NCBI RefSeq assembly: GCF_003383095.1
Contig: NZ_PSYW01000003.1
Coordinates: 310,001-374,000, forward strand
Direction of reading: 5' to 3'
Source of the DNA: Haloferax sp. Atlit-12N
Lineage (GTDB): Archaea > Halobacteriota > Halobacteria > Halobacteriales > Haloferacaceae
Length of the DNA stretch: 64,000 bases
The stretch's first letter is position 1; each line of letters begins with the position of its first letter. A program made the translations under genes and the position numbers. The notes beneath the pieces are model-generated. The model was not told where the DNA came from. It made no database searches and was given only the letters and a program-made list of their open reading frames with translations. This document shows, piece after piece, positions 17,195 through 46,278 of the stretch.

Positions 17195-17257
17195 CGGCGC
17201 ACCCGGACCCCCCGAAACGACAGCTATTTGCGACCGCGACCCGTCTCGTGTTATCAC

Positions 17258-18691
17258 ATGTATCAGCTGTCGGAGCAAGCGGAGCCTGTACCGTCGGGTT
17301 CGTCCCGAACCATCGACATCGGCTACATCGGCGGCGGGAGTCAGGGGTGGGCCCACACGCTCATCAACGACCTCGCGCAGTGTCCTGACCTCGCGGGGAG
17401 CGTCACGCTGTACGACGTGAACTACGAGATGGCGTCGAAGAACGCCCTCCTCGGCAACCGCGTGATGGACCGCGATGAGGCGGTCGGTGACTGGTCGTTC
17501 GAGGCGACCCGGAGCATGGACAAGGCGCTCGACGGGGCCGATTTCGTCATCTGCTCGATTCAGGACCCGCCGGGCGAGACGTTCGTCCACGACATCGACG
17601 TGCCCCAGGAGTACGGCATCTATCAGACGGTCGCCGACACCGTCGGCCCCGGCGGGGCGATTCGGGCGCTGCGAGCGATTCCGCAGTACCGCGAAATCGC
17701 CGCGACGGTCCGCGAGCGCTGTCCGGACGCGTGGGTCATCAACTACACCAACCCGATGACGGTCTGCACGCGGACGCTCTACGAGGAGTTCCCGGACATC
17801 AAGGCCATTGGGCTCTGTCACGAGGTGTTCAAGACGCAGAAGCTGTTCGCCGAGATGGCGGAGCGCTACATCGACGACGCCGAGGACGTCGCCCGCGACG
17901 AGGTTCGGGTCAACGTCAAGGGGGTCAACCACTTCACGTGGGTCGACGAGGCGCGGTGGCGCGACCGCGACGTGTTCCAGTACCTCGACGAGGAACTCGA
18001 CCGGCGAAAGTCGCTTTTCGACCGCGAGCCGGGCGACCTCGACGCCGAATCCTACTGGGTGAACAACGAGGAGGTCGCCCTCGACCTCTACGACCGCTTC
18101 GGCGTCCTCGGCGCGGCGGGCGACCGTCACCTCGTGGAGTTCGTCCCGTGGTATCTGAGCATCGACGAACCCGAGGAAATCCAGCGCTACGGTATCCGAC
18201 TCACGCCGAGTTCGGCCCGCGTCTCCGACGACGAGGGTCCGGACGAGATGGAGCGCTACCTCGAAGGCGACGCGGAGTTCGAGTTCCACGAGTCGGGCGA
18301 GGAGGCGGTCGACATCATGCGGGCGCTCTCCGGCGAGGGAACGTTCGTCACGCATCTCAACTACCCCAACGAGGGGCAGGTCGACGGTCTCCCCGAGGGC
18401 GCGGTGGTGGAGACGAACGCGCTCCTCTCCGGCGACGACGTGACACCCCTCTGTGCGGGCGGCCTCCCCGACGAGGTCGAGAGCATGGTCGAAACCCACG
18501 TCACGAATCAGGAGACGCTCGTGCGCGCGGGCTTCGAGGGCGACCTCGACCTCGCGTTTCAGGCGTTCCTCAACGAACCGCTCGTCACCGTCTCGCGCGA
18601 CGAGGCACAGGAGCTGTTCGCGAAACTCGTCGAACTGGAGCGCGAGTACTTCGCCGACTACGACCTCGACGCGTCGGTCCTGCAGGCGTAA
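17258..18691 (+). CDS. GH4 family glycosidase, probable alpha-galacturonidase or alpha-glucosidase
   Basis: This 477-aa protein belongs to the NAD- and Mn-dependent GH4 family. It has the N-terminal dinucleotide motif GYIGGGSQGW (22-31), the NYTNPM segment (162-167) and the metal-binding C187-H188 in GLCHEV. NHFTW follows at 224-228. GH4 enzymes hydrolyse by an oxidation-elimination mechanism, and some are alpha-galacturonidases. The surrounding pectin genes favour that activity here. The ATG at 17258 is preferred to an upstream in-frame start at 17228. There is no signal peptide, so it acts in the cytoplasm on imported oligosaccharides. Confidence 0.84.
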   Translation: MYQLSEQAEPVPSGSSRTIDIGYIGGGSQGWAHTLINDLAQCPDLAGSVTLYDVNYEMASKNALLGNRVMDRDEAVGDWSFEATRSMDKALDGADFVICSIQDPPGETFVHDIDVPQEYGIYQTVADTVGPGGAIRALRAIPQYREIAATVRERCPDAWVINYTNPMTVCTRTLYEEFPDIKAIGLCHEVFKTQKLFAEMAERYIDDAEDVARDEVRVNVKGVNHFTWVDEARWRDRDVFQYLDEELDRRKSLFDREPGDLDAESYWVNNEEVALDLYDRFGVLGAAGDRHLVEFVPWYLSIDEPEEIQRYGIRLTPSSARVSDDEGPDEMERYLEGDAEFEFHESGEEAVDIMRALSGEGTFVTHLNYPNEGQVDGLPEGAVVETNALLSGDDVTPLCAGGLPDEVESMVETHVTNQETLVRAGFEGDLDLAFQAFLNEPLVTVSRDEAQELFAKLVELEREYFADYDLDASVLQA

Positions 18692-21658: not shown

Positions 21659-21744
21659 ACGACACACTCACTCGACCCGCCCGCAAGAGCGTTCCGCCCG
21701 CGCCCGACGAAACCACTTTGTCGGGCGCTACCGAATCGCGTGGT

Positions 21745-22935
21745 ATGAGACGAGAGTTCACCGGCTACCGCCGGGAGAGCGGCCGCATCGGGGTCAGAAA
21801 CCACGTCGCCGTCCTTCCGACCTCGGTCGCGTCGTCGTGTGTCGCCCGCGGCATCGCGGCCGAGGCGGGGGCGTGGGCACGCGCGACGCCGCACCAGATG
21901 GGAGCGAACCAACCGGACGAGGCGCGGGCACAGACCGAGCGGGTGCTGGTCGGCGTCGGGCGAAATCCGAACGTCGGCGCGGCGCTCGTCGTCGAGTTCG
22001 GAACCGAGGACATCGACGCCGACGACATCGCCGACCGAATCGCCCGCGACGGGAAGCCGGTGGAGACGCTGTCGGTCCGCGAGGTCGGCGGGACGGCCGC
22101 GGCCCTCCAGCGCGGGCGAACCGCCCTCGACTCGCTGAACGAGGCAGCCGCGGACGCCCGTCACGAGTCGGCCGACGCGAGCGAACTCGTCGTCGGCGTC
22201 GAGTGCGGCGGGAGCGACGCCACCTCGGGTATCGCCGCCAACCCCGCCGTCGGCGACGCCTGCGACCGTCTCGTCGCGGCCGGGGGAACCGCCTCGTTCA
22301 GCGAGACGCCGGAGTTCATCGGCGCGGAGCACGTCCTCGCGGAGCGGTGCGCCGACGAGGAGACCCGCCGCAGACTGCTCGACCGCGTCGAGCGTCGCGA
22401 GGCGACCGCCGACCTGATGGGCGTCGACCTCCGGGGCGCACAGCCCTCGCCCGGCAATCAGGAGGGCGGGCTCACGACCATCGAGGAAAAGAGCCTCGGA
22501 GCCATCTCCAAGGGTGGGACGACTCCCGTGCGCGGCATCGTCGACTACGCCGAGCGCCTGCCGGTCGGCGGCGGCCTCGTCTTGATGGACACGCCGGGCT
22601 ACGACGTGGAGAGCGTCGTCGGCAAGGTCGCCGGCGGGGCGCAGATTATCGTCTTCACCACCGGCCGCGGGAGTACCACCGGCAACCCCGTCGCGCCTGT
22701 GGTGAAGGTCACGGGCAACCCCCGGACGTGGGAGCGCATGCGGTCGAACATGGACGTGAACGCCGGGGCGGTGGTCGAGGGCGACGCGACGATTTCCGAG
22801 GTTGGTGAGCGCATCTTCGACGAGGTGCTCGCTGTCGCCGACGGGAAGCGAACCGGGGCCGAGACGCGCCGGATGGAGGAGTTTGCCATCACGGAGGTCC
22901 ACCCGCGCGAACTCGCGGAGGTGCGGGGCACATGA
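21745..22935 (+). CDS. UxaA-family dehydratase large subunit A (C-terminal motif half kept)
   Basis: This 396-aa protein is homologous to the catalytic part of altronate/galactarate dehydratases. It keeps the family's later motifs: ECGGSDATSG (C154), ETPEFIGAEH, the SPGNQEGGLTTIEEKSLG stretch and GGAQIIVFTTGRG. The earlier motifs are degenerate: the usual HxHGC(G/S)Q is HQMGANQ (50-56), GLGCE is EFGTE, and IQxxGGT is VREVGGT. The next-but-one gene shows the opposite pattern. Its stop overlaps the start of the SAF-domain gene by 4 nt (ATGA), so the three are translated together. It probably forms one enzyme with them, dehydrating an aldonic or aldaric acid. Confidence 0.86.
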   Translation: MRREFTGYRRESGRIGVRNHVAVLPTSVASSCVARGIAAEAGAWARATPHQMGANQPDEARAQTERVLVGVGRNPNVGAALVVEFGTEDIDADDIADRIARDGKPVETLSVREVGGTAAALQRGRTALDSLNEAAADARHESADASELVVGVECGGSDATSGIAANPAVGDACDRLVAAGGTASFSETPEFIGAEHVLAERCADEETRRRLLDRVERREATADLMGVDLRGAQPSPGNQEGGLTTIEEKSLGAISKGGTTPVRGIVDYAERLPVGGGLVLMDTPGYDVESVVGKVAGGAQIIVFTTGRGSTTGNPVAPVVKVTGNPRTWERMRSNMDVNAGAVVEGDATISEVGERIFDEVLAVADGKRTGAETRRMEEFAITEVHPRELAEVRGT

Positions 22936-23243
22936 AGGGTCGCGTCCTCGACGGGGCCGCCCTCGTGCTGGCCGATGGCGACAGCGTGGCGACGGCGCTC
23001 GAAGACCTCGACGCCGGGCGCGAGGTCCGCGATGGAGACCAGGCGGTGACGCTCGCGGACGACGTTCCGTTCGGTCATAAATTCGCCCTCGAACCGCTGT
23101 CGGCCGGCGAGACGGTTCAGAAATACGGCGAGGTCATCGGGCGGGCCACGGAGGCGGTCGCGGCCGGCGAATGGGTCCACACGCACAACTGCGAGAGCAC
23201 TCGCGGCCGCGGCGATGTGGCGGCGACGGAGGCGGAGCGATGA
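22932..23243 (+). CDS. UxaA-family small subunit (SAF domain)
   Basis: This 103-aa protein corresponds to the N-terminal SAF domain of altronate/galactarate dehydratases. It has GHKFAL, the KYGEVIGRATEAVAAGEWVH segment and THNCESTRGRGD, all typical. In bacteria this domain is often fused to the large part. Here it is a separate gene that overlaps both large-subunit genes by 4 nt, with ATGA at each junction. Strict translational coupling argues for a three-subunit complex. Confidence 0.88.
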   Translation: MKGRVLDGAALVLADGDSVATALEDLDAGREVRDGDQAVTLADDVPFGHKFALEPLSAGETVQKYGEVIGRATEAVAAGEWVHTHNCESTRGRGDVAATEAER

Positions 23244-24394
23244 CCGAAAACCGCCTCTCCAACCGAATCGGCCGCGACTCGTTCGCTGGCTACCCCCGAC
23301 CCGACGGCCGCCTCGGCATCCGCAATCGGGTGCTCGTTCTCCCGTCGGTCATCTGCTCGCACGTCGTCGCCGAGGAGATAGCCGCCCGTTCGCCGGGTGC
23401 GGTGGCCGCGCCCCACGACCACGGCTGTGGGCAACTGGGCGCGGACGCCGAACAGACCGAGCGGACGCTCGTCGGCCTCGCCGGCAATCCCAACGTCGCA
23501 GGGACGGTCGTCGTCGGTCTCGGCTGTGAGACGGTCCGGAGCGACGTCGTCGCGGCGGCGGTCGAAGAACGCGGGCTTCCGGTCCGCGAACTCACGATAC
23601 AGGACACCGGGGGGACCGACGCCTGCGCCGACCGCGGCGTGGCCGCCGTTGCCGACCTCCGCGAGTCGGCGGCCGCGCAGGAGCCAGCGGAGGCAGACGA
23701 CTCGACCACAACAGCCGACGAACCGGCGGCGACCCTCGGCGACCTCACAGTCGGCGTCGTCGTCGATGACCTCGCGGACTCGACCAGACGGCACGCGCAC
23801 CCGCTCGTCGCCGAGTTGGTCGAGCGAGTCGCGGCGGCCGGCGGCCGGGTCATCGTCGCCGGCAATGAACGGTTCGCTGCGCACCCCGACGAGACGCGGG
23901 CACTCGTCGGCGACGCGGCCGCCGACCGACTGCTTGACGCGGCGGACAGACCTGCGAGAGCGACGCGCGTCGGAACGGAGGCGGCGACCCAAGGATTTGA
24001 GGCCGCGACGGGATTCATCGGCGACGCACCGGTCGCGGGTATCGCGGCGTACGGGGAGCGAGTCGGCGATGAGGGCGGCGGCGTGACGATTCTCGACGCG
24101 CCCTCCCGGGTCGAAGAGGCCGCAACCGGCCTCGCCGCCGCGGGCGCGCACCTCGTCCTCCACGTCACGGGACAGGGGACGCCCGCCGGCCATCCCATCG
24201 TCCCAGTGGTGAAGCTCTCCGGCGACGCGGACACCCTCGCGGCCGTCCCCGACGACATCGACCTCGACGCCCGCGAGGCGGACGCGGACGACCTCGAATC
24301 GCTCCTTCTCGCCGTCGCCGACGGTGACCGGACGTGTGCCGAGCAACACGGACTCACGGAGTTCGCCATCGCCCGGGCCGGCCCGTCGACCTGA
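23240..24394 (+). CDS. UxaA-family dehydratase large subunit B (N-terminal motif half kept)
   Basis: This 384-aa protein is the second UxaA-like large subunit. It keeps the early motifs lost in subunit A: PDGRLGIRNRVLVLP, HDHGCGQ (59-65, C63), GLGCE (C96) and IQDTGGT. The later motifs are gone: no CGGSD, no ETPE-IGAEH, no SPGN-GGLT-IEEKSLG. In their place is a low-complexity acidic linker at about 145-165 and a poorly conserved region. The start ATG overlaps the SAF gene stop (ATGA). The pattern suggests a heteromeric active site made from this subunit's N-terminal half and subunit A's C-terminal half. Confidence 0.84.
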   Translation: MTENRLSNRIGRDSFAGYPRPDGRLGIRNRVLVLPSVICSHVVAEEIAARSPGAVAAPHDHGCGQLGADAEQTERTLVGLAGNPNVAGTVVVGLGCETVRSDVVAAAVEERGLPVRELTIQDTGGTDACADRGVAAVADLRESAAAQEPAEADDSTTTADEPAATLGDLTVGVVVDDLADSTRRHAHPLVAELVERVAAAGGRVIVAGNERFAAHPDETRALVGDAAADRLLDAADRPARATRVGTEAATQGFEAATGFIGDAPVAGIAAYGERVGDEGGGVTILDAPSRVEEAATGLAAAGAHLVLHVTGQGTPAGHPIVPVVKLSGDADTLAAVPDDIDLDAREADADDLESLLLAVADGDRTCAEQHGLTEFAIARAGPST

Positions 24395-26964: not shown

Positions 26965-26988
26965 ATTGTTCACCAACAATTTTTATTA
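26965..26988 (+). promoter_or_regulatory. Inverted repeat and TATA-like element upstream of pectate lyase
   Basis: ATTGTT (26965-26970) and AACAAT (26975-26980) flank a 4-nt spacer and abut the T-rich TATA-like sequence at 26981-26987. That lies about 38 nt before the pectate lyase ATG. A palindrome touching the TATA box is a natural repressor position. Confidence 0.4.
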
Positions 26989-27022
26989 CGGGGCGGGTTC
27001 TGAATCCTGTTGGTGTCATAAC

Positions 27023-28885
27023 ATGACTCCCAACAGACGCACGTTCTTGCGTGCACTCGGAGCAGGTAGTATCGGTACCGTCGCGACGTTCAGCGGAACC
27101 GCTGCGGCGGCGACCACCGTCACCGTTGAGGGGGCGGGCGAAGACATCTGGAACGCCGCGGACGGGTTCCACTACTATTACGAGGAAGTGAGCGGCGACT
27201 TCGACGTCGTCGTCCACAACACCGCCTTGGAGAACACCGATAGCTGGGCCAAAGCGGGCCTCATGGTCCGGCAGACGCTGAACGCCGACGCCGAGAACGC
27301 CATGGTTCGCCGCCGACCCAACGGCGAGGCGTCGCTCCAGTGGCGCTCGGCCGCCGGCGCGGACACGGTCAGCACGACGTCCGACGGCGGGAGCGGCGAG
27401 AGCGAGGTGAGCGGCGGGTCGATTACCGCCGACTGGCTCCGCCTCACACGAAGCGGTGACACGATTTCCGCCTACGGGTCGACCGACGGGAACAACTGGA
27501 CGCTCATCGCCGACATCGAACCCGGCGAAATCGACTTTGCGGAGGACGCCTACGTCGGCCTCGCGGTGACGAGCCACAGCGCCGGCACGCTCTCGACGGC
27601 CGAGTTCGAGAGTCTCACCGGCCTGTCGCCGTCGAGCAACGGCGACGTAGGCGACGTGGACGTGGCCGGTAGCGTCTCGACCAGCGACGGCGACGGTGGG
27701 TCTGGCGACGGCGGCTCGGACGACGGGTCCGGCGGCGACACGTCCGGCGGGTCCTACTTCGACGTGGACGCCGGATTCGCGGATGCCTCGTGGTTCGACG
27801 ACAGCGTGACCGTCCACCGCGTCCAGGAGGCGACCGAGAGCGCCGTCCGCGCGGCGTTCGAGGCCAGCGGCCCGCGCCTCGTCGTCTTCGAGGCGAGTGG
27901 CGTCGTTGACCTCGGCGGCGGCGACCTCTCTATCACGAACGACAACTGCTGGGTGGCCGGTCAAACGGCTCCCTCGCCGGGAATCACCTTCATCAACGGG
28001 ATGATTCAGGTCGACGCGAACGACTGCGTCGTCCAACACCTCCGCATCTTCCGCGGGGAGGACGGCGGCGCGGCCGAGGGTGCGGACCCGATGAACAGCG
28101 CCGACGATACCTCGAACGTCATCTTCGACCACTGCAGCGCCTACTGGGGCCGCGACGAGAACCTCTCTGTCGGCTACAACACGAGCGACACGACCTTCGC
28201 GAACTGTCTCGTCGCCGAGGGCCTCGACGAACCGGAGGAGAACTCCAACGGCTCGCTCGTCGGCAACGGCGCGGAGAACGTCGCCATCCTCGGGACGGTC
28301 TACGCCGCGAACAACGACCGCAACCCGCGGCTGAAAGACGACACCCAGTCGGTCATCGCCAACAGTATCGTCTACTACTTCGACAAGGCAATCTGGGCGT
28401 CCCCCGGCGCTCAGTCCAGTGTCGTCGGCAACGCGTATCTCGGGCGGTTCGACTGGTCCGACGCGATTGTCAAGGGTGACGGCAGCGTCTACATCGAAGA
28501 CAACATCGTCGCCGACCCCGGCCTGAACGGGCGGACGTTCTGTTCGGCCACGCAACTCGGTTCTCGTCCCCTGTGGCCCAGCGGACTCACGGCGATGCCC
28601 GCCACCGATGTCGAGAGCCATAACCTCGCGTACGCGGGCGCTCGCCCGGCCGACCGCATCAGCCACGAACAGCGCGTCATCGACAACATCCGCAACCGGA
28701 GCCTCGATACCGATGTCTCGGACCCGGCGAACGCACCCGGCATCCCCGGCAACGAGGGCGAAGTCGGCGGCTACCCCGACCACGGCGGAAGCACGCGCTC
28801 GCTTTCGGTCCCCGACAGCGGCCTGCGCGACTGGGTCGACCAGTGGGCGCTCGCCGTCGAAGAGTCGGGCGCGAGCCCCCCCTGA
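27023..28885 (+). CDS. Tat-exported pectate lyase, PL1-like, with N-terminal jelly-roll-type domain
   Basis: This 620-aa extracellular enzyme should cleave pectate by beta-elimination. It has a Tat signal (NRRTFLRALG, residues 4-13, then an Ala-rich cleavage region). A concanavalin-like, DUF1349-type domain spans about 33-205 (FHYYYEEVSGDFDVVV, KAGLMVR, VRRRPNGEA, WLRLTRSGD). A Gly/Ser/Asp linker lies near 225-250 and a right-handed beta-helix lyase domain begins at about 255 (AGQTAPSPGITF, DHCSAYWGRDENLSVGY, RNPRLKDD). The linker is typical for salt-exposed secreted proteins. The ATG at 27023 immediately precedes the Tat motif. A paralogue with a different linker domain is at 44179. Confidence 0.85.
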   Translation: MTPNRRTFLRALGAGSIGTVATFSGTAAAATTVTVEGAGEDIWNAADGFHYYYEEVSGDFDVVVHNTALENTDSWAKAGLMVRQTLNADAENAMVRRRPNGEASLQWRSAAGADTVSTTSDGGSGESEVSGGSITADWLRLTRSGDTISAYGSTDGNNWTLIADIEPGEIDFAEDAYVGLAVTSHSAGTLSTAEFESLTGLSPSSNGDVGDVDVAGSVSTSDGDGGSGDGGSDDGSGGDTSGGSYFDVDAGFADASWFDDSVTVHRVQEATESAVRAAFEASGPRLVVFEASGVVDLGGGDLSITNDNCWVAGQTAPSPGITFINGMIQVDANDCVVQHLRIFRGEDGGAAEGADPMNSADDTSNVIFDHCSAYWGRDENLSVGYNTSDTTFANCLVAEGLDEPEENSNGSLVGNGAENVAILGTVYAANNDRNPRLKDDTQSVIANSIVYYFDKAIWASPGAQSSVVGNAYLGRFDWSDAIVKGDGSVYIEDNIVADPGLNGRTFCSATQLGSRPLWPSGLTAMPATDVESHNLAYAGARPADRISHEQRVIDNIRNRSLDTDVSDPANAPGIPGNEGEVGGYPDHGGSTRSLSVPDSGLRDWVDQWALAVEESGASPP

Positions 28886-30341: not shown

Positions 30342-31457
30342 TCAGTCGGCCGGCTGTTCCGCGTCGTCGGCGACGTCGATGTCGAGGTCGTCGGTGAGCG
30401 GCTCGCTGTTCCGGTAGTCGATTCTGTCGTGCGCGTCGAAGCAGGCCGCCTCGTGGCGGTCAGACGGGCCGCTCATGCCGGAGAGGTCCGGTGTGTTCGA
30501 CGTGCAGTACTCCCGCGCCTCGGGACAGCGGGTGTGGAACCGACAGCCGCTCGGCGGGTTCTCCGGGTCCGGGATGTCGATTTTCCTGACCGGGGGCGTC
30601 TCGATGGGGTCGTTTATCTCCGAGAGGCCGGAGGTCGCCCACAGGAGGCTCTTGGTGTACGGGTGCTGGGGGTTCTTGATAATCTCGTCCGCCGGGCCGA
30701 TTTCGACGATGCGGCCGAGGTACATGACGGCGATGCGGCCGTCGGCGCGACCGGCGAGATACCGAGCGTTCGCCATGTTGTGCGAGATGAAGACGAACGA
30801 GGTGCTGAACATCTCCTGCAGTTCGAGGAGGAGGTCCATCAGGTTCACCCGCAGCGACACGTCGAGGGCGCTCACAGCCTCGTCGGCGAGGATGAGGTCC
30901 GGTTCGAGGAGCATCGACCGGACGATGACGGTCCGCTGGGCCTCTCCGCCGCTCAGTTGGTGGGGGTACCGCGAGGCGTAGTCGTCGGCGGGGGTGAGCC
31001 CGACGGTGTCGAGCATCTGGTGGACGAGTTCCCGCCGTTCGACGAGGTTGAGCTCCGGCCGCCACTTCTTCAGCGCCGGGTTGAGGTTCTTGAATATCGT
31101 CCGGTTGGGGTCAAGCGAGTTCCCGGCGTCCTGGTGGACCATCTGGAGCGACTTCCGAATCTCCTTGTACGGGATGTCGCCGGGTTCGAGGTCGGACTTC
31201 CAGATGTCCTGTCCGCGGAAGCGGACCGCCCCCGAGGTAGGGCGTTGGAGGCCGATCATGGCCTTTCCGAGCGTCGTCTTGCCACAGCCGGACTCGCCGA
31301 CGAGTGCGACCACGTCGTTCTCGCCGATGTCGAGCGAGACGTTGTCGACGGCGCGGACGACGCCCTTGTCGTCGCCGAGGAAGCGGTCGAGGATGCCCTC
31401 GTTGCCGCCGAAGTGGACGCTCAGGTCGTCGACGCGGAGCAGGGGGTCGTCGCTCAT
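30342..31457 (-). CDS. Oligopeptide/oligosaccharide ABC transporter ATPase (OppF/DppF type)
   Basis: This 371-aa ATPase has a Walker A (GESGCGKTT), the signature LSGGEAQR, a Walker B (LILADEAVSALDVS) and an H-loop. It also has the C-terminal Opp-type extension with cysteines (CRFHTRCPEAREYC) that can hold an iron-sulfur cluster in this subfamily. Its start overlaps the OppD-type stop by 4 nt. With the genes up to 37613 it forms one importer. The pectin setting suggests oligogalacturonides rather than peptides. Confidence 0.9.
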   Translation of the reverse strand: MSDDPLLRVDDLSVHFGGNEGILDRFLGDDKGVVRAVDNVSLDIGENDVVALVGESGCGKTTLGKAMIGLQRPTSGAVRFRGQDIWKSDLEPGDIPYKEIRKSLQMVHQDAGNSLDPNRTIFKNLNPALKKWRPELNLVERRELVHQMLDTVGLTPADDYASRYPHQLSGGEAQRTVIVRSMLLEPDLILADEAVSALDVSLRVNLMDLLLELQEMFSTSFVFISHNMANARYLAGRADGRIAVMYLGRIVEIGPADEIIKNPQHPYTKSLLWATSGLSEINDPIETPPVRKIDIPDPENPPSGCRFHTRCPEAREYCTSNTPDLSGMSGPSDRHEAACFDAHDRIDYRNSEPLTDDLDIDVADDAEQPAD

Positions 31458-32515
31458 TTCGAGACCTCCTTCTTGAGGGGAATCGTCTCACGGGCTTCGT
31501 CGGTGTAGAAGCACGCGGCTCCGTGGTCCTCGGACACCTCGATGAGGTCCGGGTTCGTCGCCCGGCACTGCTCGTCGGCGAGCGGGCACCGGGTGTGGTA
31601 CGAACAGCCCTTCGGAACGTTCAGCGGGTCGGGACTCGTCCCCTCGATGGACGCCATCTCGTCGAGGTCGGCGTCGATGTCGGGTATCGAGTTGAGTAGC
31701 TCCCGCGTGTAGGGATGGGCGGGGTCCATGACGATGTCCTGCACCGGGCCGAGTTCGAGCAGTTCGAAGGCGTACATCACCGCGAGGCGGTCGGAGATGC
31801 GCGCGACGTGGCTCAGGTCGTGCGTCACGATGACGATGGTGAGGTCGTACTCGGCTTTCAGCTCCGAGAGGAGCTTCAGAATCGACTGCTGCATCAGGAG
31901 GTCGAGCGCGGCGGTCGGCTCGTCCATCACGAGTACGTCGGGGTCGAGGATGAGGCTCAGCGCGATGAGCGCGCGCTGTTTCATCCCGCCGGATAGCTCG
32001 TGGGGGTACGCGTCGAGGACGCGGTCCGGTTCGAGGTGCACGTCGGAGATGAGCTGTCGGGCGCGCTCCATCCCTTCTTGGATGTCGTAGTCGTGCGCTC
32101 GGAGCGTCTCGACGAAGTGGTCGCCGATGCTGAGCGTCGGGTTGAACGAGTCGAGGGCCCCCTGTACGACCATCGAGACGCGCTCCCAGCGGAACCGGCG
32201 AAGCTCCTCTTTGCTCAGGTCGTTGACCTTGATTGGCTCGCCGCCCTCCGGCGGGTTGAACACCACGTCGCCCGTGAGCGTCCCGGGCGAGTCGATGGCG
32301 TCGAGCATGGAGTCCGCCAGCATCGACTTGCCGGAGCCGGACTCGCCGACGACGCCGAGAACCTCGCCGCGGCGGACGTTAATCGACACGTCGTCGAGGA
32401 CTCGCGCGTCCCCGCGCTCCATCGCGAACGCGACGCTCGCGTTCGTTATTTCGAGTACGTTGTGTTCGGCCGTTGGCTCTTCAGGCATCTTCTGTTTGGT
32501 GTGTTGTGTCGCCAT
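31454..32515 (-). CDS. Oligopeptide/oligosaccharide ABC transporter ATPase (OppD/DppD type)
   Basis: This 353-aa ATPase has a Walker A (GESGSGKSM), LSGGMKQR, a Walker B (VLVMDEPTAALD) and the C-terminal cysteine motif CSYHTRCPLADEQC. The ATG at 32515 (MATQHTK) is chosen over an upstream in-frame start. A minus-strand ATTAAGTA at 32620-32627 is the nearest promoter-like element and would leave a leader of roughly 80 nt. It is translated together with the OppF-type gene through an ATGA overlap. Confidence 0.9.
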   Translation of the reverse strand: MATQHTKQKMPEEPTAEHNVLEITNASVAFAMERGDARVLDDVSINVRRGEVLGVVGESGSGKSMLADSMLDAIDSPGTLTGDVVFNPPEGGEPIKVNDLSKEELRRFRWERVSMVVQGALDSFNPTLSIGDHFVETLRAHDYDIQEGMERARQLISDVHLEPDRVLDAYPHELSGGMKQRALIALSLILDPDVLVMDEPTAALDLLMQQSILKLLSELKAEYDLTIVIVTHDLSHVARISDRLAVMYAFELLELGPVQDIVMDPAHPYTRELLNSIPDIDADLDEMASIEGTSPDPLNVPKGCSYHTRCPLADEQCRATNPDLIEVSEDHGAACFYTDEARETIPLKKEVSK

Positions 32516-32619
32516 GGTCAGTCCCTCTCGTCGGTTCGTACGGCGGGCGAGCGACCCCACCCGTCACGCGTGCCTATCGTCAACATGTGACCGTAGTAGG
32601 AATCTATCACGTTCAATAC

Positions 32620-32730: not shown

Positions 32731-32949
32731 ATGGCGCAAGCGCAAACGCGACAGAACGTGCTGTGGACAGTTCGCTCCAAAATCGGCGGTATCACCTCGA
32801 CGGTGATTCTCCTCGGAGCGCTGTTAATTCTCTTCGGTGCCGCCCTTCAGACCGGCGTCTGGGCGGGAATGTTCGGAATAATCGGCGGATTGCTGGTGTT
32901 CGTCGCCGTCGCGTTCCGGGTACTGATCTGGGCGTACCGGCTGTTCTGA
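32731..32949 (+). CDS. Small two-helix membrane protein (72 aa)
   Basis: This protein has a charged N-terminus of about 20 residues, then two hydrophobic helices (GITSTVILLGALLILFGAAL and GMFGIIGGLLVFVAVAFRVL). AACTATAAG at 32698-32706 gives leaderless spacing to the ATG. No family is recognised. It runs opposite to the surrounding transporter genes, and its stop codon directly abuts that of a 33-aa membrane peptide gene on the minus strand. Confidence 0.65.
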   Translation: MAQAQTRQNVLWTVRSKIGGITSTVILLGALLILFGAALQTGVWAGMFGIIGGLLVFVAVAFRVLIWAYRLF

Positions 32950-33051
32950 TTACATCATGGTGAATCCGTAGTACACCCCGATGAGCAGGATTACGAGTAT
33001 CACGAGGCCGAGCAGGTACCGCGTCGTATTTCCTTCTTTCTCCACTTTCAT
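32950..33051 (-). CDS. 33-aa single-pass membrane peptide
   Basis: ATG at 33051 to TAA at 32950. The product starts MKVEKEGNTTRY (charged, cytoplasmic) and continues with one hydrophobic helix (LLGLVILVILLIGVYYGF) ending in MM. A minus-strand GGTTAAC lies about 40 nt upstream. It sits between the permease and ATPase genes of the Opp-type importer on the same strand. Small single-pass proteins can modulate transporters, but that role is conjecture here. Confidence 0.5.
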   Translation of the reverse strand: MKVEKEGNTTRYLLGLVILVILLIGVYYGFTMM

Positions 33052-33182: not shown

Positions 33183-35309
33183 TTAGTCCGCGGCCGATGC
33201 GGGACCGTCGCCGCCTTCCGAACCGCCGCTACCGCCTTCCATGTCGTCGGTCGAGACGGTGGCCGCGTGGCGAGCGCGCAGACGGGGGTTGAACAGTCGG
33301 TCCGTCCCCTGCGCGAACAGCTGGAGGCCGTACGTCATCGTGACGATGAACAGTATCGGCGCGAGCAGCCAGTGGAAGCGGTCCATGCCGGACAGCGCCC
33401 CGCCGTTGCGGGCGATGTTGAGGACGACGCCCCAGTTGCTCGTCGTGAACGGCAGCACGCCGATGAAGTACAGGCCGACGGACTCCATCAGGATGTTCCG
33501 CATGGAGCCGACGGTCCCCATCGTCAGCATCGGCATGAGCCGGGACATGACGTTCTTCGAGAGGATGCTCGACGTGGGTAGTCCCAGCACGCGCGAGGCC
33601 TCGACGTGGGACTCACCGCGGATGGTGAGCACCTGCGAGCGAAGCTGTCGGGCCAAGCGTGGCCAGTTGTCGATGGCCAGCACGAACCCAACGAACACCG
33701 GACTCTTCGGTTCGAGAATCACGGCGAGGACGATGACGAGCGCGAGGCCGGGGATGTTCATCATCACGTCGGTCACCGTCATGAGCACCTTGTCGATGAC
33801 GCCGCCGAGGTAGCCGGACGTGACGCCGAAGAAGATGGCGAGCCCGAGCGTGACGAGTGCCCCCGACAGCATCATGACGAGCATCGGGCGGGTCGCGAGC
33901 ACCTGCTGTGCGAGGAGGTCGCGGCCGATGTCGTCGGTGCCGAGCGGGTAGCGCATGTTCTCCAGCGGTTGCAGGAGAATCGGCCCCTGCATCGGTCTGA
34001 CCTCGGGGACGATGTACGGCCCGAACAGCCCGAGGAACCCGAAGATGCTGAGGATTATCGCGCCAACCCGCGCCCGCGGCGAGGTCCAGATGATGCGGAA
34101 CGGGGTCAGGAGGCTCTGGTCGATTCGCTCTTTGATGTACTCGCCGCGCGAGAAGTCGGAGCTATCGACGTCGAAGCTCATCGCGCCGCTCGCCGAGATG
34201 CGGTTGCCCTCGATGCGGTCGTCGATGGTCTCGGTCTCGTCCGCGCCGCCGCCTCGCAGGCGGTTGACGAACCGCTGGAGGGTTTCGCGGTACGACCGCG
34301 AGTAGGACTCGCGCTGGGTGTGCCCGGCGCGCGGGTCGATGAAGCCGTAGGTGAAGTCGGCGATGAGCAGGCCGACGACGGTGACGATGGTGAAGAGGAT
34401 GACCGCCGCCATGACCGTCGTGTAGTCCCGCGCCATCGTGGCCTCGTAGAAGTAAAAGCCCATGCCGCGGTAGCGGAATATCTGCTCCATGATGACCGAA
34501 CCGCCGAACAGGCTGGCGAGGCCGGCCATGAGACCGGTGTACATCGGGAGCATCGAGTTCCAGCCGATGTACCGTAGCTGAATCCGGCTGTCGGGCAGTC
34601 CCCTGAGTTCCGCCACGTCGACGTAGTCCTCACCGATGATGCGGGTACAGTGCGCGCGGAACTCGAGGCCGCCCCACGAGGTCAGCGCGAACGACATGAT
34701 GGGCAGCGCCGCGTGTCGCAGCACGCTGGCCATGAACTCGATGTTGAACCCGGGCGTGAGCGCGTTGTCGTACCGCCCCCCATTGGGGAAGAACTCGGTG
34801 CCGAATCCGAGCGTGAAAAGCAGTACGAGCCCGACGATGTAGTACGGGACGGCGTCGGAGAAGATGACGAAGTAACTCCCGACCACGTCCCAGGTGTCTC
34901 CCTCGTGGACGGCGAGGAAGCCGCCGATGAGGAACACCATGATGGTGCCGATGACGAGGGCGAAAAGCGAGACGAACATCGTCCACGGGATCGCCGGTCC
35001 GAGCACGCTCCAGACCGGGTCCGAGTAGAAGATAGACCGCCCGAAGTCTAGTTGCGCAACCGATACGATGTATTCGACGTACGCCTGCAGCATCGGCTTG
35101 TCCGGGTTGACGTTCGAGTACATCTCGACCATCTGGTTGAGGCGGGTCGACGAAACCGCCCCCCCGGACCGCTGTCTAATCTGCGCGGCGATGTAGTCCA
35201 TCGGCCCGCCCGGTATGAGCCGAACCGTCACGAACGAGAACGTGATCGCCGCCCAGACCGTTATCAGGGCCTGCGCTATCCGGCGCACGTAGTAATTTTT
35301 CTCGACCAT
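33183..35309 (-). CDS. Fused DppB-DppC-type ABC transporter permease
   Basis: This 708-aa protein contains both membrane subunits normally encoded separately. Residues 1 to about 330 match DppB/OppB (GGPMDYI near the N-terminus and an EAA-like region GEDYVDVAELRGLPDSRI). After a hydrophilic linker at about 330-400, the rest matches DppC/OppC (YPLGTDDIGRDLLAQ, then RGESHVEASRVLGLPTSSI). The C-terminal tail is Gly/Ser/Asp-rich. There is no internal stop or restart, and the linker reads as normal acidic haloarchaeal sequence, so the fusion looks genuine. It is flanked by the binding-protein and ATPase genes. Confidence 0.88.
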   Translation of the reverse strand: MVEKNYYVRRIAQALITVWAAITFSFVTVRLIPGGPMDYIAAQIRQRSGGAVSSTRLNQMVEMYSNVNPDKPMLQAYVEYIVSVAQLDFGRSIFYSDPVWSVLGPAIPWTMFVSLFALVIGTIMVFLIGGFLAVHEGDTWDVVGSYFVIFSDAVPYYIVGLVLLFTLGFGTEFFPNGGRYDNALTPGFNIEFMASVLRHAALPIMSFALTSWGGLEFRAHCTRIIGEDYVDVAELRGLPDSRIQLRYIGWNSMLPMYTGLMAGLASLFGGSVIMEQIFRYRGMGFYFYEATMARDYTTVMAAVILFTIVTVVGLLIADFTYGFIDPRAGHTQRESYSRSYRETLQRFVNRLRGGGADETETIDDRIEGNRISASGAMSFDVDSSDFSRGEYIKERIDQSLLTPFRIIWTSPRARVGAIILSIFGFLGLFGPYIVPEVRPMQGPILLQPLENMRYPLGTDDIGRDLLAQQVLATRPMLVMMLSGALVTLGLAIFFGVTSGYLGGVIDKVLMTVTDVMMNIPGLALVIVLAVILEPKSPVFVGFVLAIDNWPRLARQLRSQVLTIRGESHVEASRVLGLPTSSILSKNVMSRLMPMLTMGTVGSMRNILMESVGLYFIGVLPFTTSNWGVVLNIARNGGALSGMDRFHWLLAPILFIVTMTYGLQLFAQGTDRLFNPRLRARHAATVSTDDMEGGSGGSEGGDGPASAAD

Positions 35310-35516: not shown

Positions 35517-37613
35517 TTACTGCCCTCCCTCCGCCGGGTGGAAGTACTCGGTTCCCATCTTGGCCATGTACTGGCAGTAGGAGTACTGGCCGATTTCGAC
35601 GATTTCGTAGCGGTACGCCGGATTCAGGTTGTTGTTCGGCGGCTTCGTCGCCCAGTTGTCGTGATTCAGCCAGTAGCCACCCGTGCCGCCCTCCTCGTTG
35701 ATGAGCATCATCGGGAGCGACTGGTTGAATATCCACGAGACTTCCGCGACCTTCTGTCTGCGCTCTTCGTCGGACATCTGCGTCCGAAGCTCGTTGAGCT
35801 TGTTGATGACGTCGACCTCTTGGAGGTCACCGGTCGGGTCGCCGATTGGGTACGGCACCTCGACCACGCGGTCCATCGCCCAGCTGTCGTTGCTCGGAAG
35901 CGGCTGTCCAGACAGCGACTCTTGGACCCGGAAGGAGTTCGAGAAGCCGAGGAACGGCGGGCCGGACTTCGCGCCGCCCCAGTTGTCGAACAGCAGCTCC
36001 CAGTCGCCGGACTCCATCGTCTTCCCGGCGCGGATGGTCGCCTCCTGTGCGGTCACTTCGGTCTGGAGACCGAAGCTGTCCAGGTAGGACTTCGCGATCT
36101 GCGCGAACCGCAGAGCCATCGGCTCCTCGTCGGACGTCGCCGTGTAGAACCGCAGGGTGACGTTCTCGCCGTTCGGGTCTTTCCAGCGGTTGCCCGACTT
36201 CGAGAAGCCGGCGGCCTCGAGGAGTTCGGTCGCCCGCTGTTCGTCCACGTCGTCTTCCGTGTGGGCGTACCGTTCGAGCTTCGCGAGGTCGCCGCTCGGC
36301 CAGTTCGAGTTCCCGCCGAACCATGGCACTTCCTTGTCCTGCCCGATGCCGGACGGAATGCGGTCTTCGACCCAGTAGGTGCCGTAGTCCGGAACCCACT
36401 CGACGAGGGGCTTCCGGGGGACGATGTGGTGAATCGCCTTCCGGACGCGCGGGTCGCCGGTGATGTCGCTCTGACAGTTGAGCAGGACGCCCATCGCCCC
36501 GCTGCGCATCTGCGGCGTGATCTGGTCCTCGGAGAGGCTGTCGGCCGGCCCCCACCCGTTCTCCTTGAGTCGGTCACGGGCGGACTGTGACTCCGGCGGG
36601 TAGCTCACGTCGATGACGCCCTCCTGCATCGCCTTGGTCCGCTGTTGCTGGTTCGGGTAGCGGTGCCAGTCGAGGCTGTAGTCTATCATGTCGCCCGTAA
36701 TCTCGCCGTTCGACCACTCGGCGTCGCTGAAGGGGCTGACGTAGTCGTCGTAGGGTTCGAAGTGCGCGACGTTCTCCTCTCCGCTGACGAACTCCCAGAC
36801 GGAGTTCCCCGGCACGTTCGCGTTGTCCCAGACGTTCTTTTGAACCGCCTGCATCATCTCCTGCTGGGCAGAGGTCCGCTCCGAGTCGGTGGTGGCGTCG
36901 TCGAACATCTCGGCGTACTTCCCCCAGATGTCCCGGTGCGCCCAGAGCCACGCGCGGCGCTTCATGTGACCGAACTCGAATATCTCCCGGCTGATGTCTG
37001 GCTCGACCAGATCGAACGTGAGTTCGTACTTCCCGGTCGTCTCCACGTTCTCGTACAGCGGTTGCGCGCCGTAGCCCTTGTGGACGGTCTGCATCAGCTT
37101 GCCGATCTTGAGCTGAGTCGCCACGTCCTCCGCGGTCAGGTCGTCGCCGTTGTGCCACGTGTAGCTGTCGCGGACGTTCCACGCGACCTGTCCGTTGTCG
37201 GCGTACTCCCAGTCTTCGATGACCATCCCTTTCGTCTTGTTCGACACCTTGTCGTGGACGGCCAACTGGTCGAACATCGCCCAGTACCACCGGAACGAGA
37301 AGTTCGCGGCGTTGCCGTACGGGTTGAATCGGGCGTTCGTCGGTGCGAGCGAGATGATGTGGTCGAGCGTTCGTCCCGACGACTGGCCGGTCGAATCGCC
37401 CTCGGTCGTCGTGCTCCCGCCGCCGCCACCCTCGTTCTCGAGCGGAGTCGGCGTGTCTTCGTTACCACCACTGCTACAACCGGCCAGCGCGGCGGCACCG
37501 GCCGTGGCACCGAACGCGTTTCGAAGCAGACGCCGGCGTGTCTGTGGCGATACGTCTTCCCACTCGTCGTCGCTGATCCACTTGTCGGACTCAGCGCTGC
37601 TTTGCGAATCCAT
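35517..37613 (-). CDS. Opp/Dpp-type ABC transporter substrate-binding lipoprotein
   Basis: This 698-aa family 5 solute-binding protein has an N-terminal Tat motif (TRRRLLRNAFG), a lipobox (LAGC) and a Gly/Ser/Thr/Glu linker. It is larger than most peptide-binding proteins (500-600 aa), as seen for some oligosaccharide receptors. The ATG at 37613 is preferred over the GTG one codon upstream. A minus-strand GTATATATG (37640-37648) lies about 31 nt before it. In this setting oligogalacturonide binding is plausible. Peptide binding cannot be excluded. Confidence 0.85.
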   Translation of the reverse strand: MDSQSSAESDKWISDDEWEDVSPQTRRRLLRNAFGATAGAAALAGCSSGGNEDTPTPLENEGGGGGSTTTEGDSTGQSSGRTLDHIISLAPTNARFNPYGNAANFSFRWYWAMFDQLAVHDKVSNKTKGMVIEDWEYADNGQVAWNVRDSYTWHNGDDLTAEDVATQLKIGKLMQTVHKGYGAQPLYENVETTGKYELTFDLVEPDISREIFEFGHMKRRAWLWAHRDIWGKYAEMFDDATTDSERTSAQQEMMQAVQKNVWDNANVPGNSVWEFVSGEENVAHFEPYDDYVSPFSDAEWSNGEITGDMIDYSLDWHRYPNQQQRTKAMQEGVIDVSYPPESQSARDRLKENGWGPADSLSEDQITPQMRSGAMGVLLNCQSDITGDPRVRKAIHHIVPRKPLVEWVPDYGTYWVEDRIPSGIGQDKEVPWFGGNSNWPSGDLAKLERYAHTEDDVDEQRATELLEAAGFSKSGNRWKDPNGENVTLRFYTATSDEEPMALRFAQIAKSYLDSFGLQTEVTAQEATIRAGKTMESGDWELLFDNWGGAKSGPPFLGFSNSFRVQESLSGQPLPSNDSWAMDRVVEVPYPIGDPTGDLQEVDVINKLNELRTQMSDEERRQKVAEVSWIFNQSLPMMLINEEGGTGGYWLNHDNWATKPPNNNLNPAYRYEIVEIGQYSYCQYMAKMGTEYFHPAEGGQ

Positions 37614-37639
37614 CACACAGTACCCATTATGACTATCCC

Positions 37640-37767: not shown

Positions 37768-38010
37768 ATGGGAACCTCAGAACAGTCGTACTTCAAATGT
37801 TGGATCTGCCGAAAGAAGATGCTGTGGACGAGCGTGCTCTCGTTCACGCTGCTCATCGTCGTGCTCGGCCTCCTCGCGATGACGGGCATCGAGCGCGGGA
37901 CCGCGTCGTACGTCGTCCTCATGATGGACTTCGCCCTCGCCGGCGTACTCCTCGCGACCGTCGGCGTCGTCTTCTGGCGCTGCGGCTATCTGAGTGACGC
38001 CCTCGAGTGA
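37768..38010 (+). CDS. Small membrane protein with N-terminal CxxC
   Basis: This 80-aa protein carries C11-W-I-C14 near the N-terminus followed by two hydrophobic helices (WTSVLSFTLLIVVLGLLAM and VLMMDFALAGVLLATVGVVFW). The CxxC could bind metal or be redox-active. CTATTATC at 37738-37745 gives leaderless spacing. The family is not recognised. It is divergent from the binding-protein gene of the importer. Confidence 0.65.
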   Translation: MGTSEQSYFKCWICRKKMLWTSVLSFTLLIVVLGLLAMTGIERGTASYVVLMMDFALAGVLLATVGVVFWRCGYLSDALE

Positions 38011-39665: not shown

Positions 39666-41204
39666 GTGACTCTCGAACAGCGGAACGTGCGCGACTACGG
39701 TATCGAAGACGACGATTCGCTCGACACGGCGGCGATTCAGGCGGCGCTCGACGACTGCGCCGGCGAGGGCGGCGAGGTGTATCTCCCGCCGGGGACGTAC
39801 CGAAGCGCCCCGCTCCGCGTCGGCGACGACACGACGTTCAGACTGGCAAACGGGGCGGAACTCCAGTTCGTCCAGGACTTCACCGAGTTCCCGACGGTCG
39901 AGAGCCGCTGGGAGGGGTGGGACCAAGACGGCTTCCACCCGTGTCTCCACGTGGCCGACGCCGAGAACGTCACCATCACCGGCGAGGGCGTCATCGACGG
40001 CGGCGGCTCCTACTGGTGGGAGTTCGTGTCGTTACCGCCCGAGCAGTACCCCTCCGAACTCACCGAGCGACTCGAGGAGATTCGACGTGGCAACCAGCAG
40101 GACGAGGTGAGCACGTTCACGGTGCGCCCGCCACTGCTCCAGATAGACGGCTGTGAGAACGTGACCGTCTCCGGCGTGACGCTCCGGAACTCCCCGTTCT
40201 GGAACACCCACGTGGTCTACTCCGACGACGTGACGATTCACGACGTGTCGATTCAGAACCCGCCGGACGCCCCGAACGGCGACGGCATCGACATCGACTC
40301 CTCGCGCTTTGTCAGGGTCAGCGACACCCACATCGACGCCGGCGACGACGCCATCTGCCTGAAGTCCGGCAAGGACGAGCAGGGCCGCGAGGTCGGACGC
40401 CCGACCGAGAACGTCGTCGTGACCAACTGCACGGTCGAACACGGCCACGGCGGCGTCGTCATCGGGAGCGAGACGGCCGGCGACGTGCGGCACGTCACCG
40501 TCACGAACTGCACCTTCACCGACACCGACCGCGGCATCCGCATCAAGTCCAAGCGCGGCCGCGGCGGGACGGTCGAGGACCTCCGGTTCGACACTATCAT
40601 CATGCGCCGCGTCGCCTGCCCGTTCGTCATCAACGGCTACTACCAGACGGACATCGACAGCGACCCCAAGCCCGTCACCGAGGCGACGCCGAACGTCCGC
40701 AACGTCAACTTTCACCACATCTCCGCCGAGGAGGTCGAGTCGGCGGCGTTCCTCGCGGGCCTCCCCGAACAGCGGTTCGAGGGAATCTCCTTTACCGACG
40801 TGGACATCGACGCGACCCGCCCGTTCGACGCCTCGGACCTCTCGCCCGCGATGGCGAAGGGCTACGACCAGCGACACGGCGTCTTCTGTAAGTCGCTCGG
40901 CAGCGTCTCGTTCAAGGACGTTCGCGTGACGGTCCCCGATGGGAGCGGGACCCCGCTGACCGCGGAAGCGAGTTCGACCGTCGTCCTCGACGGGTTCGAG
41001 GCCGAGGCCGACGAGGCCCCGGCTGTCGTGGCGGACGGCGTCGAGAACCTCCGAATCGGCGGCTGCGTCGCCCCCGACGACGGCGAACCGTTCGCTCACG
41101 TCCGCGACGAGGGCGACGGCGAATCCTCGGTGCTCCTCGCTGGCAACTACGGCGACATGGCCGAGGCCGTCGTTTCAGTACAGCCAGAGACGGTCGAGCG
41201 GTAG
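39666..41204 (+). CDS. GH28 polygalacturonase-like glycosidase, intracellular
   Basis: This 512-aa right-handed beta-helix enzyme has the full GH28 catalytic set: NGDGIDID (204-211), GDDAICLKSG with D227 and D228, GHGG (260-263) and R292-I-K294. It should hydrolyse galacturonic acid linkages, most likely exo-acting on short oligomers. No Tat or Sec signal is present, and the mature fold starts at once (VRDYGIEDDDSLDTAAIQ), so it acts inside the cell. The start codon is GTG. It follows an esterase gene and precedes a bidirectional terminator. Confidence 0.9.
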   Translation: MTLEQRNVRDYGIEDDDSLDTAAIQAALDDCAGEGGEVYLPPGTYRSAPLRVGDDTTFRLANGAELQFVQDFTEFPTVESRWEGWDQDGFHPCLHVADAENVTITGEGVIDGGGSYWWEFVSLPPEQYPSELTERLEEIRRGNQQDEVSTFTVRPPLLQIDGCENVTVSGVTLRNSPFWNTHVVYSDDVTIHDVSIQNPPDAPNGDGIDIDSSRFVRVSDTHIDAGDDAICLKSGKDEQGREVGRPTENVVVTNCTVEHGHGGVVIGSETAGDVRHVTVTNCTFTDTDRGIRIKSKRGRGGTVEDLRFDTIIMRRVACPFVINGYYQTDIDSDPKPVTEATPNVRNVNFHHISAEEVESAAFLAGLPEQRFEGISFTDVDIDATRPFDASDLSPAMAKGYDQRHGVFCKSLGSVSFKDVRVTVPDGSGTPLTAEASSTVVLDGFEAEADEAPAVVADGVENLRIGGCVAPDDGEPFAHVRDEGDGESSVLLAGNYGDMAEAVVSVQPETVER

Positions 41205-42602: not shown

Positions 42603-42627
42603 GCGAAACTCGACGGCCGAGTTCGAC

Positions 42628-44178: not shown

Positions 44179-46278
44179 ATGAGACCCGATAGACGGACGT
44201 TCCTCCGCGTGCTCGGAGCAGGAAGTATTGGTGCGGCGACGACTGGCCTCTTCGGTGGCAGCGCCGCGGCCGCGACCGTGATTTCGATGCAGGGCGGCGG
44301 CGACGACATCTGGGGTACTGCCGACGCGTTCCACTACTACTACACAGAACTGAGCGGCGACTTCGACGTCGCCGTCCAGAACACCGGCATCGACAACATC
44401 GAAAGCTGGACGAAGACGGGCCCGATGGTCCGCGAGTCGCTCGACCCCGACTCGAAGAACGTCATGGTCCGTCGCCGGCCCAACGGCGAGGCGTCGATGC
44501 AGTACCGGCCCGAAGACGGTGCCGAGACGAACAGCGTCGGCGGCACACAGGCTGACTGGCTCCGTCTCAAGCGAAGCGGTGACACGATAGAGACGTACCA
44601 CTCCACGGACGGCGAGACGTGGACGTCGATTAACACGCTCGACGCCACCGACATCTCGCTGGGCGACAGCGTCTACGTCGGTCTGGCGGTCACCAGCCAC
44701 CTCTCGGGGACGCTCGCGACGGCGACGTTCCAGAGCCTTTCTGGCGTCGACCCCGACCAGAACCGCGATATCGGCGACGTCGAAGTCGCGGGAAGCGTGG
44801 AGAACACGACGGGCGTCCCGCTCGTCTCGACCGACGACGTGACCGACATCGGCCCCGGATCCGCGACGCTCACCGGCGAACTCGGCGACCTCGGTGGTGC
44901 TGATTCCGCGGACTGTTACTTCGAGTATCGGGAGGTACCCACTGAATCGTGGAAGACCACGGACCCGACGGAACTCACCTCACCGGGCGCGTTCAGCGTC
45001 GAGGCGGACGACCTGACGGAACGTCGCTACTACGAGGTGCGCGCGGTGGCAGACACGGCCGACGGAGACACCGCGCGAGGCGCAGTCTCCACGTTCAACA
45101 CCTCGAACCCGTCGAACAGCAAGGTTCCGGCCCACGCCGGTCCGGACAGCGCGTCGCATTTCGGACCGAGCGACGGGTTCGCCGAGGCTGCACCGTGGCT
45201 CGACGACGACACGCCGGTCATCGTGATAACCGAGCCGACGCGTCGCCAACTCGAAAAGGCGGTCACCATCGACGGCGAGCGACTGGTCGTCTTCGAGACC
45301 AGCGGAACGATCGACCTCGGCGTGCGCGACCTCCCGATTCCGTACGACAAGTGCTACATCGCGGGCCAGACCGCGCCCTCGCCGGGCGTCACGTTCGTCA
45401 AGGGTCGCGTGAATATCGGGGCGAGCGACTGCGTCCTCCAGCACGTCCGGGTGCGACTCGGCGACGCGGGCATCGAGGAACCGACCGAGGACTGGGCGCT
45501 CGACACGGTCAACACGGCCGACGAGACGACGAACAACGTCATCGACCACGTCTCCGCCTCGTGGAGCGTCGACGAGTGCCTCTCGGTCGGCTACGAGACT
45601 GCGGAGACGACTGTCTCGAACTGCCTCGTCGCCGAGGCGCTCGACGACTCGGTCCACCCGAAGGGCGAACACGGCTACGGCTCGCTCATCGGCAACGACG
45701 CGAAGAACGTCGCCATGCTGGGGAACGTCTGGGCGTTCAACACCGACCGCCATCCCAGACTCAAGGAGGGGACCGAGAGCGTCGTCGTCAACAACGTGAT
45801 GTACGACCACGAGGACGGTACGTGGATGGACCCCGACACCGAGGCGAGCATCGTCGGCAACGCCTATCTCCGGCCCAACTCGAATAAGGCGAACGTCTTC
45901 ACCGAGGACGACGTGGACACCGCCGTGGCGTACCTCGAAGACAACCGCACCGACGGCGACGTGCCGATGGTCGACGAGAACGTGACCGTGGTCGACGAGC
46001 GGCCGCTGTGGCCCGACGGACTGGCAGCGATGTCGTCGGACCGGACGTTCGACCACAACCTCGCGAACGTCGGCGCGCGCCCGGCCGACCGCACAGCGAC
46101 CGACGAACGCATCCTCGAAAACGTCGAAAACGGGGAGAGCTACCTCGTCGACAGTCAGGAGCAGGTCGGCGGCTACCCGAACCTCGCGGTCAACAGCCAC
46201 GAGCTGAACGTCCCCAATGGCGGGACTCGACCGTGGCTCCGGTCGTGGTCTCGTCGGGTCGAGACACCCTCACAATGA
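44179..46278 (+). CDS. Tat-exported pectate lyase, PL1-like, with jelly-roll-type and FN3-like domains
   Basis: This 699-aa paralogue of the lyase at 27023 has a Tat signal (DRRTFLRVLG), a DUF1349-type domain at about 33-205 and the same VRRRPNGEA and ADWLRL segments. An FN3-like beta-sandwich lies at about 215-305 (GSATLTGELGDLG, YYEVRAVADT). The beta-helix lyase domain starts near 330 (AGQTAPSPGVTF, DHVSASWSVDECLSVGY, HPKGEHGYGSLIGN, RHPRLKEG). The extra KGEHGYG stretch is typical of PL1 enzymes of this type. It should act on pectate outside the cell. The ATG at 44179 directly precedes the Tat motif. Confidence 0.86.
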   Translation: MRPDRRTFLRVLGAGSIGAATTGLFGGSAAAATVISMQGGGDDIWGTADAFHYYYTELSGDFDVAVQNTGIDNIESWTKTGPMVRESLDPDSKNVMVRRRPNGEASMQYRPEDGAETNSVGGTQADWLRLKRSGDTIETYHSTDGETWTSINTLDATDISLGDSVYVGLAVTSHLSGTLATATFQSLSGVDPDQNRDIGDVEVAGSVENTTGVPLVSTDDVTDIGPGSATLTGELGDLGGADSADCYFEYREVPTESWKTTDPTELTSPGAFSVEADDLTERRYYEVRAVADTADGDTARGAVSTFNTSNPSNSKVPAHAGPDSASHFGPSDGFAEAAPWLDDDTPVIVITEPTRRQLEKAVTIDGERLVVFETSGTIDLGVRDLPIPYDKCYIAGQTAPSPGVTFVKGRVNIGASDCVLQHVRVRLGDAGIEEPTEDWALDTVNTADETTNNVIDHVSASWSVDECLSVGYETAETTVSNCLVAEALDDSVHPKGEHGYGSLIGNDAKNVAMLGNVWAFNTDRHPRLKEGTESVVVNNVMYDHEDGTWMDPDTEASIVGNAYLRPNSNKANVFTEDDVDTAVAYLEDNRTDGDVPMVDENVTVVDERPLWPDGLAAMSSDRTFDHNLANVGARPADRTATDERILENVENGESYLVDSQEQVGGYPNLAVNSHELNVPNGGTRPWLRSWSRRVETPSQ

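Follow-up and report, generated by a model that had tools for sequence, protein, structure and literature searches.

In the E. coli Dpp complex, according to PMC12136057, the permease subunits DppB and DppC are separate chains. For the DNA studied here, a 64,000-nucleotide stretch of the Haloferax sp. Atlit-12N genome (hereafter the window), an earlier note had described both subunits as fused into one polypeptide and proposed that the fusion may mark a distinct, perhaps oligogalacturonide-specific, importer lineage. The locus raises the question of whether such a one-chain permease is real, what importer it belongs to and what, if anything, the fusion says about substrate.

A complete importer with a one-chain permease

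The importer genes of the window are:

35517..37616, minus strand: substrate-binding lipoprotein (SBP) of the SBP_bac_5 family, upstream of the permease (Pfam), with N-terminal twin arginines and a LAGC lipobox-like motif (by eye)
33183..35309, minus strand: fused DppB-DppC permease, 708 aa, with a B-type half (~4–330), linker (~331–395), C-type half (~395–680) and acidic tail (translation, Pfam, NCBIfam, PDB matches, AlphaFold2)
31454..32560, minus strand: OppD-type ATPase with oligo_HPY domain, downstream of the permease, C-x5-C-x6-C-x17-C motif (Pfam/NCBIfam)
30342..31457, minus strand: OppF-type ATPase with oligo_HPY domain, downstream of the permease, C-x5-C-x6-C-x20-C motif (Pfam/NCBIfam)

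Because the SBP gene lies upstream and the OppD and OppF genes downstream on the same strand, the importer gene set is complete. Both ATPases carry Walker A, an LSGG signature, the oligo_HPY C-terminal domain and a four-cysteine motif, the spacing of which was compared with that of DppD as described in PMC12136057. Judged from its domains (B- and C-type BPD_transp_1, SBP_bac_5 and two oligo_HPY ATPases, all present), the locus is an Opp/Dpp-type ABC importer; we call it a variant because the usual separate B and C polypeptides are absent here.

The permease frame runs from an ATG at 35309 to a stop at 33183–33185 with zero internal stops, and the plus strand in the same frame position is interrupted by stops. 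Two BPD_transp_1 stretches fall within it (Pfam): residues 4–330 match B-type and 405–680 C-type models (NCBIfam), the E. coli sequences align correspondingly (DppB, 8z1v_A, at 7–331; DppC, 8z1v_B, at 402–677), and both EAA-type loops are there (GEDYVDVAELRGLPDSRI and GESHVEASRVLGLPTSSI). The earlier note had the coordinates and length of the frame right, its strand, which went unstated, being minus; its claim of both helix sets and both loops in one frame agrees with these matches and motifs, and its linker of about 70 residues with the 65–70 or so measured between the domains. None of the named Opp subfamilies (NCBIfam equivalogs such as Opp4B, Opp2B, NikB and DppB) matched at the curated cut-off, the best score being 169.8 bits against a required 450, and the protein is therefore filed under none of them.

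The B-C fusion is real and not a sequencing artefact. An error hiding a stop, which the earlier note had named as the finding that could overturn it, is excluded because the same fused frame is open in eight other genomes carrying its orthologues (together clade 1, described below) and on the complete chromosome of Halosimplex aquaticum. A pseudogene is likewise ruled out by these open orthologues and by a whole-frame pN/pS of 0.06–0.36.

Junction and predicted structure

34116..34319, minus strand: linker (~331–398), predicted as a short helix (340–351) followed by an acidic disordered stretch; its single internal ATG is codon 377

An AlphaFold2 model of the fused permease, built from 19 sequences, reached moderate confidence (mean pLDDT 71.5, pTM 0.70), and linker residues 325–386, the short helix among them, lay below a pLDDT of 50. 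Each half of the model fits solved DppB or DppC chains, at an aligned identity of 20–26% per half. Chain 9j4r_A, FbpB of the Thermus thermophilus ferric importer FbpBC, spans both model halves at once (VIA Z 24.0, 433 residues, model 19–673, rmsd 4.5).

Many unfused DppB relatives terminate ..DPRAG..ESY; the fused frame continues past RESY via SRSYRETLQRFVNRLRGG and then an acidic stretch into the DppC start. A basic stretch shortly after the old DppB end is common to the linkers of other fusions as well (compared by eye). Taken on its own, the linker has a pN/pS that climbs to 1.11 against Halosimplex, and with the whole frame so low its sequence is free to vary while the frame stays open; constraint on the linker is weak.

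Orthologues and repeated fusion in haloarchaea

Clade-1 orthologues were found in 9 of 391 haloarchaeal genomes (that of the window included), all of them fused and 86–100% identical: seven of the 15 Haloferax genomes, Halogeometricum pallidum (G358) and G121, a genome of the same family. The fused orthologue of Halosimplex aquaticum, from a named collection, is 76% identical, and the clade-1 orthologues altogether span four genus-level lineages at 76–100% identity. No unfused orthologue was found in Haloferax, where the eight genomes without the fusion yielded either paralogues, the best at E 8e-87, or no match at 1e-60. The earlier note had suggested that the fusion may mark a distinct importer lineage and had held that unfused orthologues in the same strain lineage would speak against this; clade 1 is indeed a distinct orthologous fused lineage. 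The window's own genome holds 26 matches to the fused permease protein, itself included.

The same fusion, which the note had proposed to seek in other haloarchaea, occurs in at least 27 of the 391 genomes, nine of clade 1 and 18 others (L055–L069, L072, L081 and L085), a lower bound given that two candidates were scored per genome and that a part of the listed matches was fetched. These other fused permeases likewise have both halves joined by a linker in one frame; they are 36–42% identical to the clade-1 protein (13 rows aligned), do not form one clade with it and have other glycan neighbours in the loci sampled. A maximum-likelihood tree built from 27 fused rows and 21 unfused ones placed the fused rows in about seven groups scattered among the unfused, a tentative count of origins, with values of 39–67 at several deep nodes. 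An AU test under LG+F+G4 rejected a single clade of all fusions (P = 0.004; 38 rows, the 48 less ten closely related ones). On the evidence of the tree and the AU test, the B-C fusion arose several times in haloarchaea.

No fused relative was found outside the Halobacteria in 51 matching genomes of other phylum classes at E 1e-30 (up to four candidates scored per genome). A candidate from Leifsonia flava (L053) proved to be unfused. Among the 40 PLSDB records listed, 38 annotate two permeases and one is unannotated; that of Haloarcula marina has a lone 'ABC transporter permease subunit', which means that databases already contain such a fused gene without comment. This fusion was not found in the literature on permease fusion, haloarchaeal pectin transport or DUF7315/microproteins, as covered by titles and the starts of abstracts with few subscription journals.

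ATPase genes are fused at some loci as well. Permeases and ATPases are both fused at L056 (4218–6407 and 8460–10571) and L085 (2179–4290 and 6258–8444), where three polypeptides (binding protein, fused permease and fused ATPase) would therefore suffice. OppD and OppF are fused and B and C separate at L070, L075, L077, L078, L082, L083, L084, L086 and L087.

Pectin and uronate genes accompany clade 1

The window holds the following sugar-acid genes:

17228..18691, plus strand: GH4 glycosidase; H. pallidum and Halosimplex also have GH4 adjoining the fused permease
21718..24394, plus strand: galactarate/altronate dehydratase-like genes, three frames
26966..28885, plus strand: PelZ-like pectate lyase, below the NCBIfam cut-off
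39666..41204, plus strand: GH28 polygalacturonase-like enzyme (Pfam/NCBIfam matches)
44179..46278, plus strand: second PelZ-like pectate lyase, below the NCBIfam cut-off

UxuA-like and KdgD-like enzymes are additionally encoded. In each genus that could be examined, the clade-1 fusion sits with pectin/uronate genes: PelZ adjoins the importer in G121, with GH28 at a distance of 14 kb; a PL2 pectate lyase, together with the GH4 gene, adjoins the fused permease in Halosimplex; and in H. pallidum the importer with its GH4 gene lies near the end of contig C38 and a GH28 gene near the start of contig C39, which suggests that the two are neighbours across contigs. GH28 was present in all nine tested clade-1 genomes and in none of the eight Haloferax genomes without the fusion, a pattern that may, within Haloferax, reflect one inheritance event.

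This association does not extend to the fusion in general. Neither PelZ nor GH28 appeared in the 18 stretches fetched around non-clade-1 fused loci; these other lineages adjoin sulfatases or enzymes for xylan/arabinan, and of the six loci sampled, L055, L057 and L059 have sulfatases and L062, L065 and L081 have GH10, GH3, arabinofuranosidase or GH4 genes. Conversely, the importers of six haloarchaeal pectin loci (L075, L077, L078, L082, L083 and L084; pectate lyase beside all, GH28 in four of six) belong to the same Opp/Dpp family yet have separate B and C genes, a fused OppD-OppF instead and a distant branch of the permease tree. The fusion was accordingly rejected as a marker of pectin uptake. 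Thus the oligogalacturonide link of the earlier note holds for clade 1 through its pectin/uronate neighbours and fails for the fusion as such, which is not always found by pectinase genes. Clade 1 is likely an oligogalacturonide importer, a call drawn from gene neighbours because its closest relatives of solved structure import peptides and the permease reached the cut-off of no named NCBIfam subfamily.

Two further genes of these neighbourhoods have relatives elsewhere. A second SBP gene, ~50% identical to that of the window, lies beside GH28 in G121 (L134, 15037–17085). A nickel-pincer-dependent isomerase gene (NCBIfam group 22; 41253–42629, minus strand) lies near the window's importer, and G260 has a copy with 83% identity close to another fused permease (L059, 13858–15207, minus strand).

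Small membrane-protein frames at the importer

Three short frames with hydrophobic stretches lie within or beside the operon, the least expected part of our findings:

32950..33051, minus strand: micro33, 33 aa, a single hydrophobic stretch, same strand as the operon, in the gap from permease to OppD
32731..32949, plus strand: small72, 72 aa, two hydrophobic stretches, antisense within the operon and tail to tail with micro33
37768..38010, plus strand: small80, 80 aa, two hydrophobic stretches, in divergent orientation to the SBP gene

All three were present in each of the nine clade-1 loci scanned (L045–L052 and L054), with further small80 matches at L135 (second copy of G040) and L056. Across the 391 genomes, micro33 occurred in nine, exactly those of clade 1, whereas the small72 and small80 families were found in 60 and 92, respectively. 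The pN/pS was 0.16–0.37 for micro33, which has few sites, and 0.09–0.58 for small72. Neither the small72 nor the small80 family matched at a Pfam cut-off, nine plasmid records label small72 relatives 'hypothetical protein', and treatment of the two as one family was not supported (hhalign probability 4.7%).

Both families, with distant relatives in the case of small72, tend to lie near Dpp genes. A listed Dpp permease match stood within 8 kb of 42 of 87 small72 matches and of 48 of 131 small80 matches, nine matches in each count being clade 1 itself. Distances were taken to the permease matches listed, two candidates per genome, and for small80 some C-half rows were left out and three loci added; the small72 matches of G056 and G311 were counted as far, yet adjoin Dpp genes. 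Chance proximity to Dpp is about 1% by a hand estimate (two loci, each about 18 kb long, in 4 Mb). Among the best 30 loci of each family, a Dpp part was within 1.5 kb in 15 for small72 and present in 17 for small80, SBP counted. We tentatively suggest that haloarchaeal Dpp-type glycan importers, fused and unfused, could carry overlooked small membrane accessory proteins of the 72-aa and 80-aa families, and that micro33 could be an additional subunit dedicated to the fused oligogalacturonide importer.

Another 80-aa frame with a hydrophobic stretch lies at 19915–20157 (minus strand) of the window; its conservation is 62–90% in L047, L049 and L050, and weaker matches occur elsewhere.

Proposed working and alternative explanations

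In view of the observed fusion, its conservation, its domains and its gene context, the frame is probably the complete transmembrane part of one Opp/Dpp-type importer that, with the adjacent SBP, OppD and OppF, would take up short uronides. The N-terminal half would act as B subunit and the C-terminal half as C subunit, forming a pseudo-symmetric pore in one chain with the halves tethered on the cytoplasmic side; at the junction, the ancestral end of DppB (..DPRAG..RESY) would lead into a short amphipathic stretch and the acidic linker, after which DppC begins. PelZ and GH28 enzymes would release short uronides outside the cell, the SBP lipoprotein would capture these and dock on the fused permease, ATP hydrolysis by OppD and OppF, bound through one EAA loop each, would drive import, and GH4 and the dehydratases would process the product. 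Since B and C halves are fused in one chain, their ratio is 1:1, and the likely benefit of the fusion is this equal supply together with correct pairing amid the many related B/C pairs in the genome; the mutual orientation of the halves would presumably be fixed as well.

The nearest solved relatives of the fused permease are dipeptide and oligopeptide importers, and Opp-family importers serve peptides in most organisms, which would fit an importer for peptides or some other solute that lies by chance in a sugar-acid region. We consider this improbable: pectinase or GH4 genes accompany the fusion in every clade-1 lineage, including Halosimplex with its different pectinase family, PL2, and other haloarchaeal relatives of the permease also adjoin glycan genes. 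Alternatively, two proteins might be made from the fused frame, through an internal start at codon 377 or cleavage of the linker, which is fast-changing and predicted to be unstructured. The ATG at codon 377 (window 34181 down) coincides with the expected position of a DppC start and is shared by Haloferax, H. pallidum and G121; however, Halosimplex has CTG there and no ATG anywhere at residues 326–420, and a separate start for DppC is therefore not conserved. As no GGAGG-like site was seen by eye in the 30 bases preceding the codon either, the making of two proteins appears very unlikely.

The fusion itself might be neutral, arising when the stop codon of DppB, next to a DppC gene in the same frame, was lost by chance, and kept as harmless. 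Its repeated origin and the weak linker constraint would be expected under such a course, and for some related unfused pairs the alignment runs on in a single frame across the one stop that separates them. The fused state has nonetheless outlasted genus-level divergence in two clades, clade 1 and that of L060–L069 and L081, and the basic stretch shared by the linkers also argues against neutrality, an explanation that we hold to be conceivable but rather doubtful.

Relation to known systems and significance

The importer locus of the window combines oligo_HPY ATPases with an SBP_bac_5 binding protein, as is general for the Dpp/Opp family, and its B/C permease folds and ATPase partners are those of E. 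coli DppBCDF/OppBCDF and M. tuberculosis DppABCD/OppABCD (PDB 8z1v, 8z21, 8wd9 and 8j5q). Unlike E. coli DppB and DppC, the Haloferax permease is one chain with a linker of 65–70 residues. FbpB (PDB 9j4r) also has two permease halves in one polypeptide, an arrangement seen here from sequence and predicted structure, but it is an iron importer, only 14% identical to the fused permease, whose halves are of Opp/Dpp B and C types. With an SBP_bac_5 binding protein and Opp-type rather than ferric-type halves, the locus does not encode an FbpB-type ferric importer. The importer type is thus already known, as are one-chain permeases from FbpB, and the Opp/Dpp B-C fusion is a variant of moderate importance.

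Repeated fusion of the permease halves supplies naturally occurring single-chain forms of an importer that is otherwise studied as a set of five subunits; such forms would be useful for structural work and for asking why the subunits elsewhere stay separate. The small membrane proteins hint at possible accessory parts of archaeal importers, and clade 1 is a testable candidate for the uptake of pectin fragments by Haloferax.
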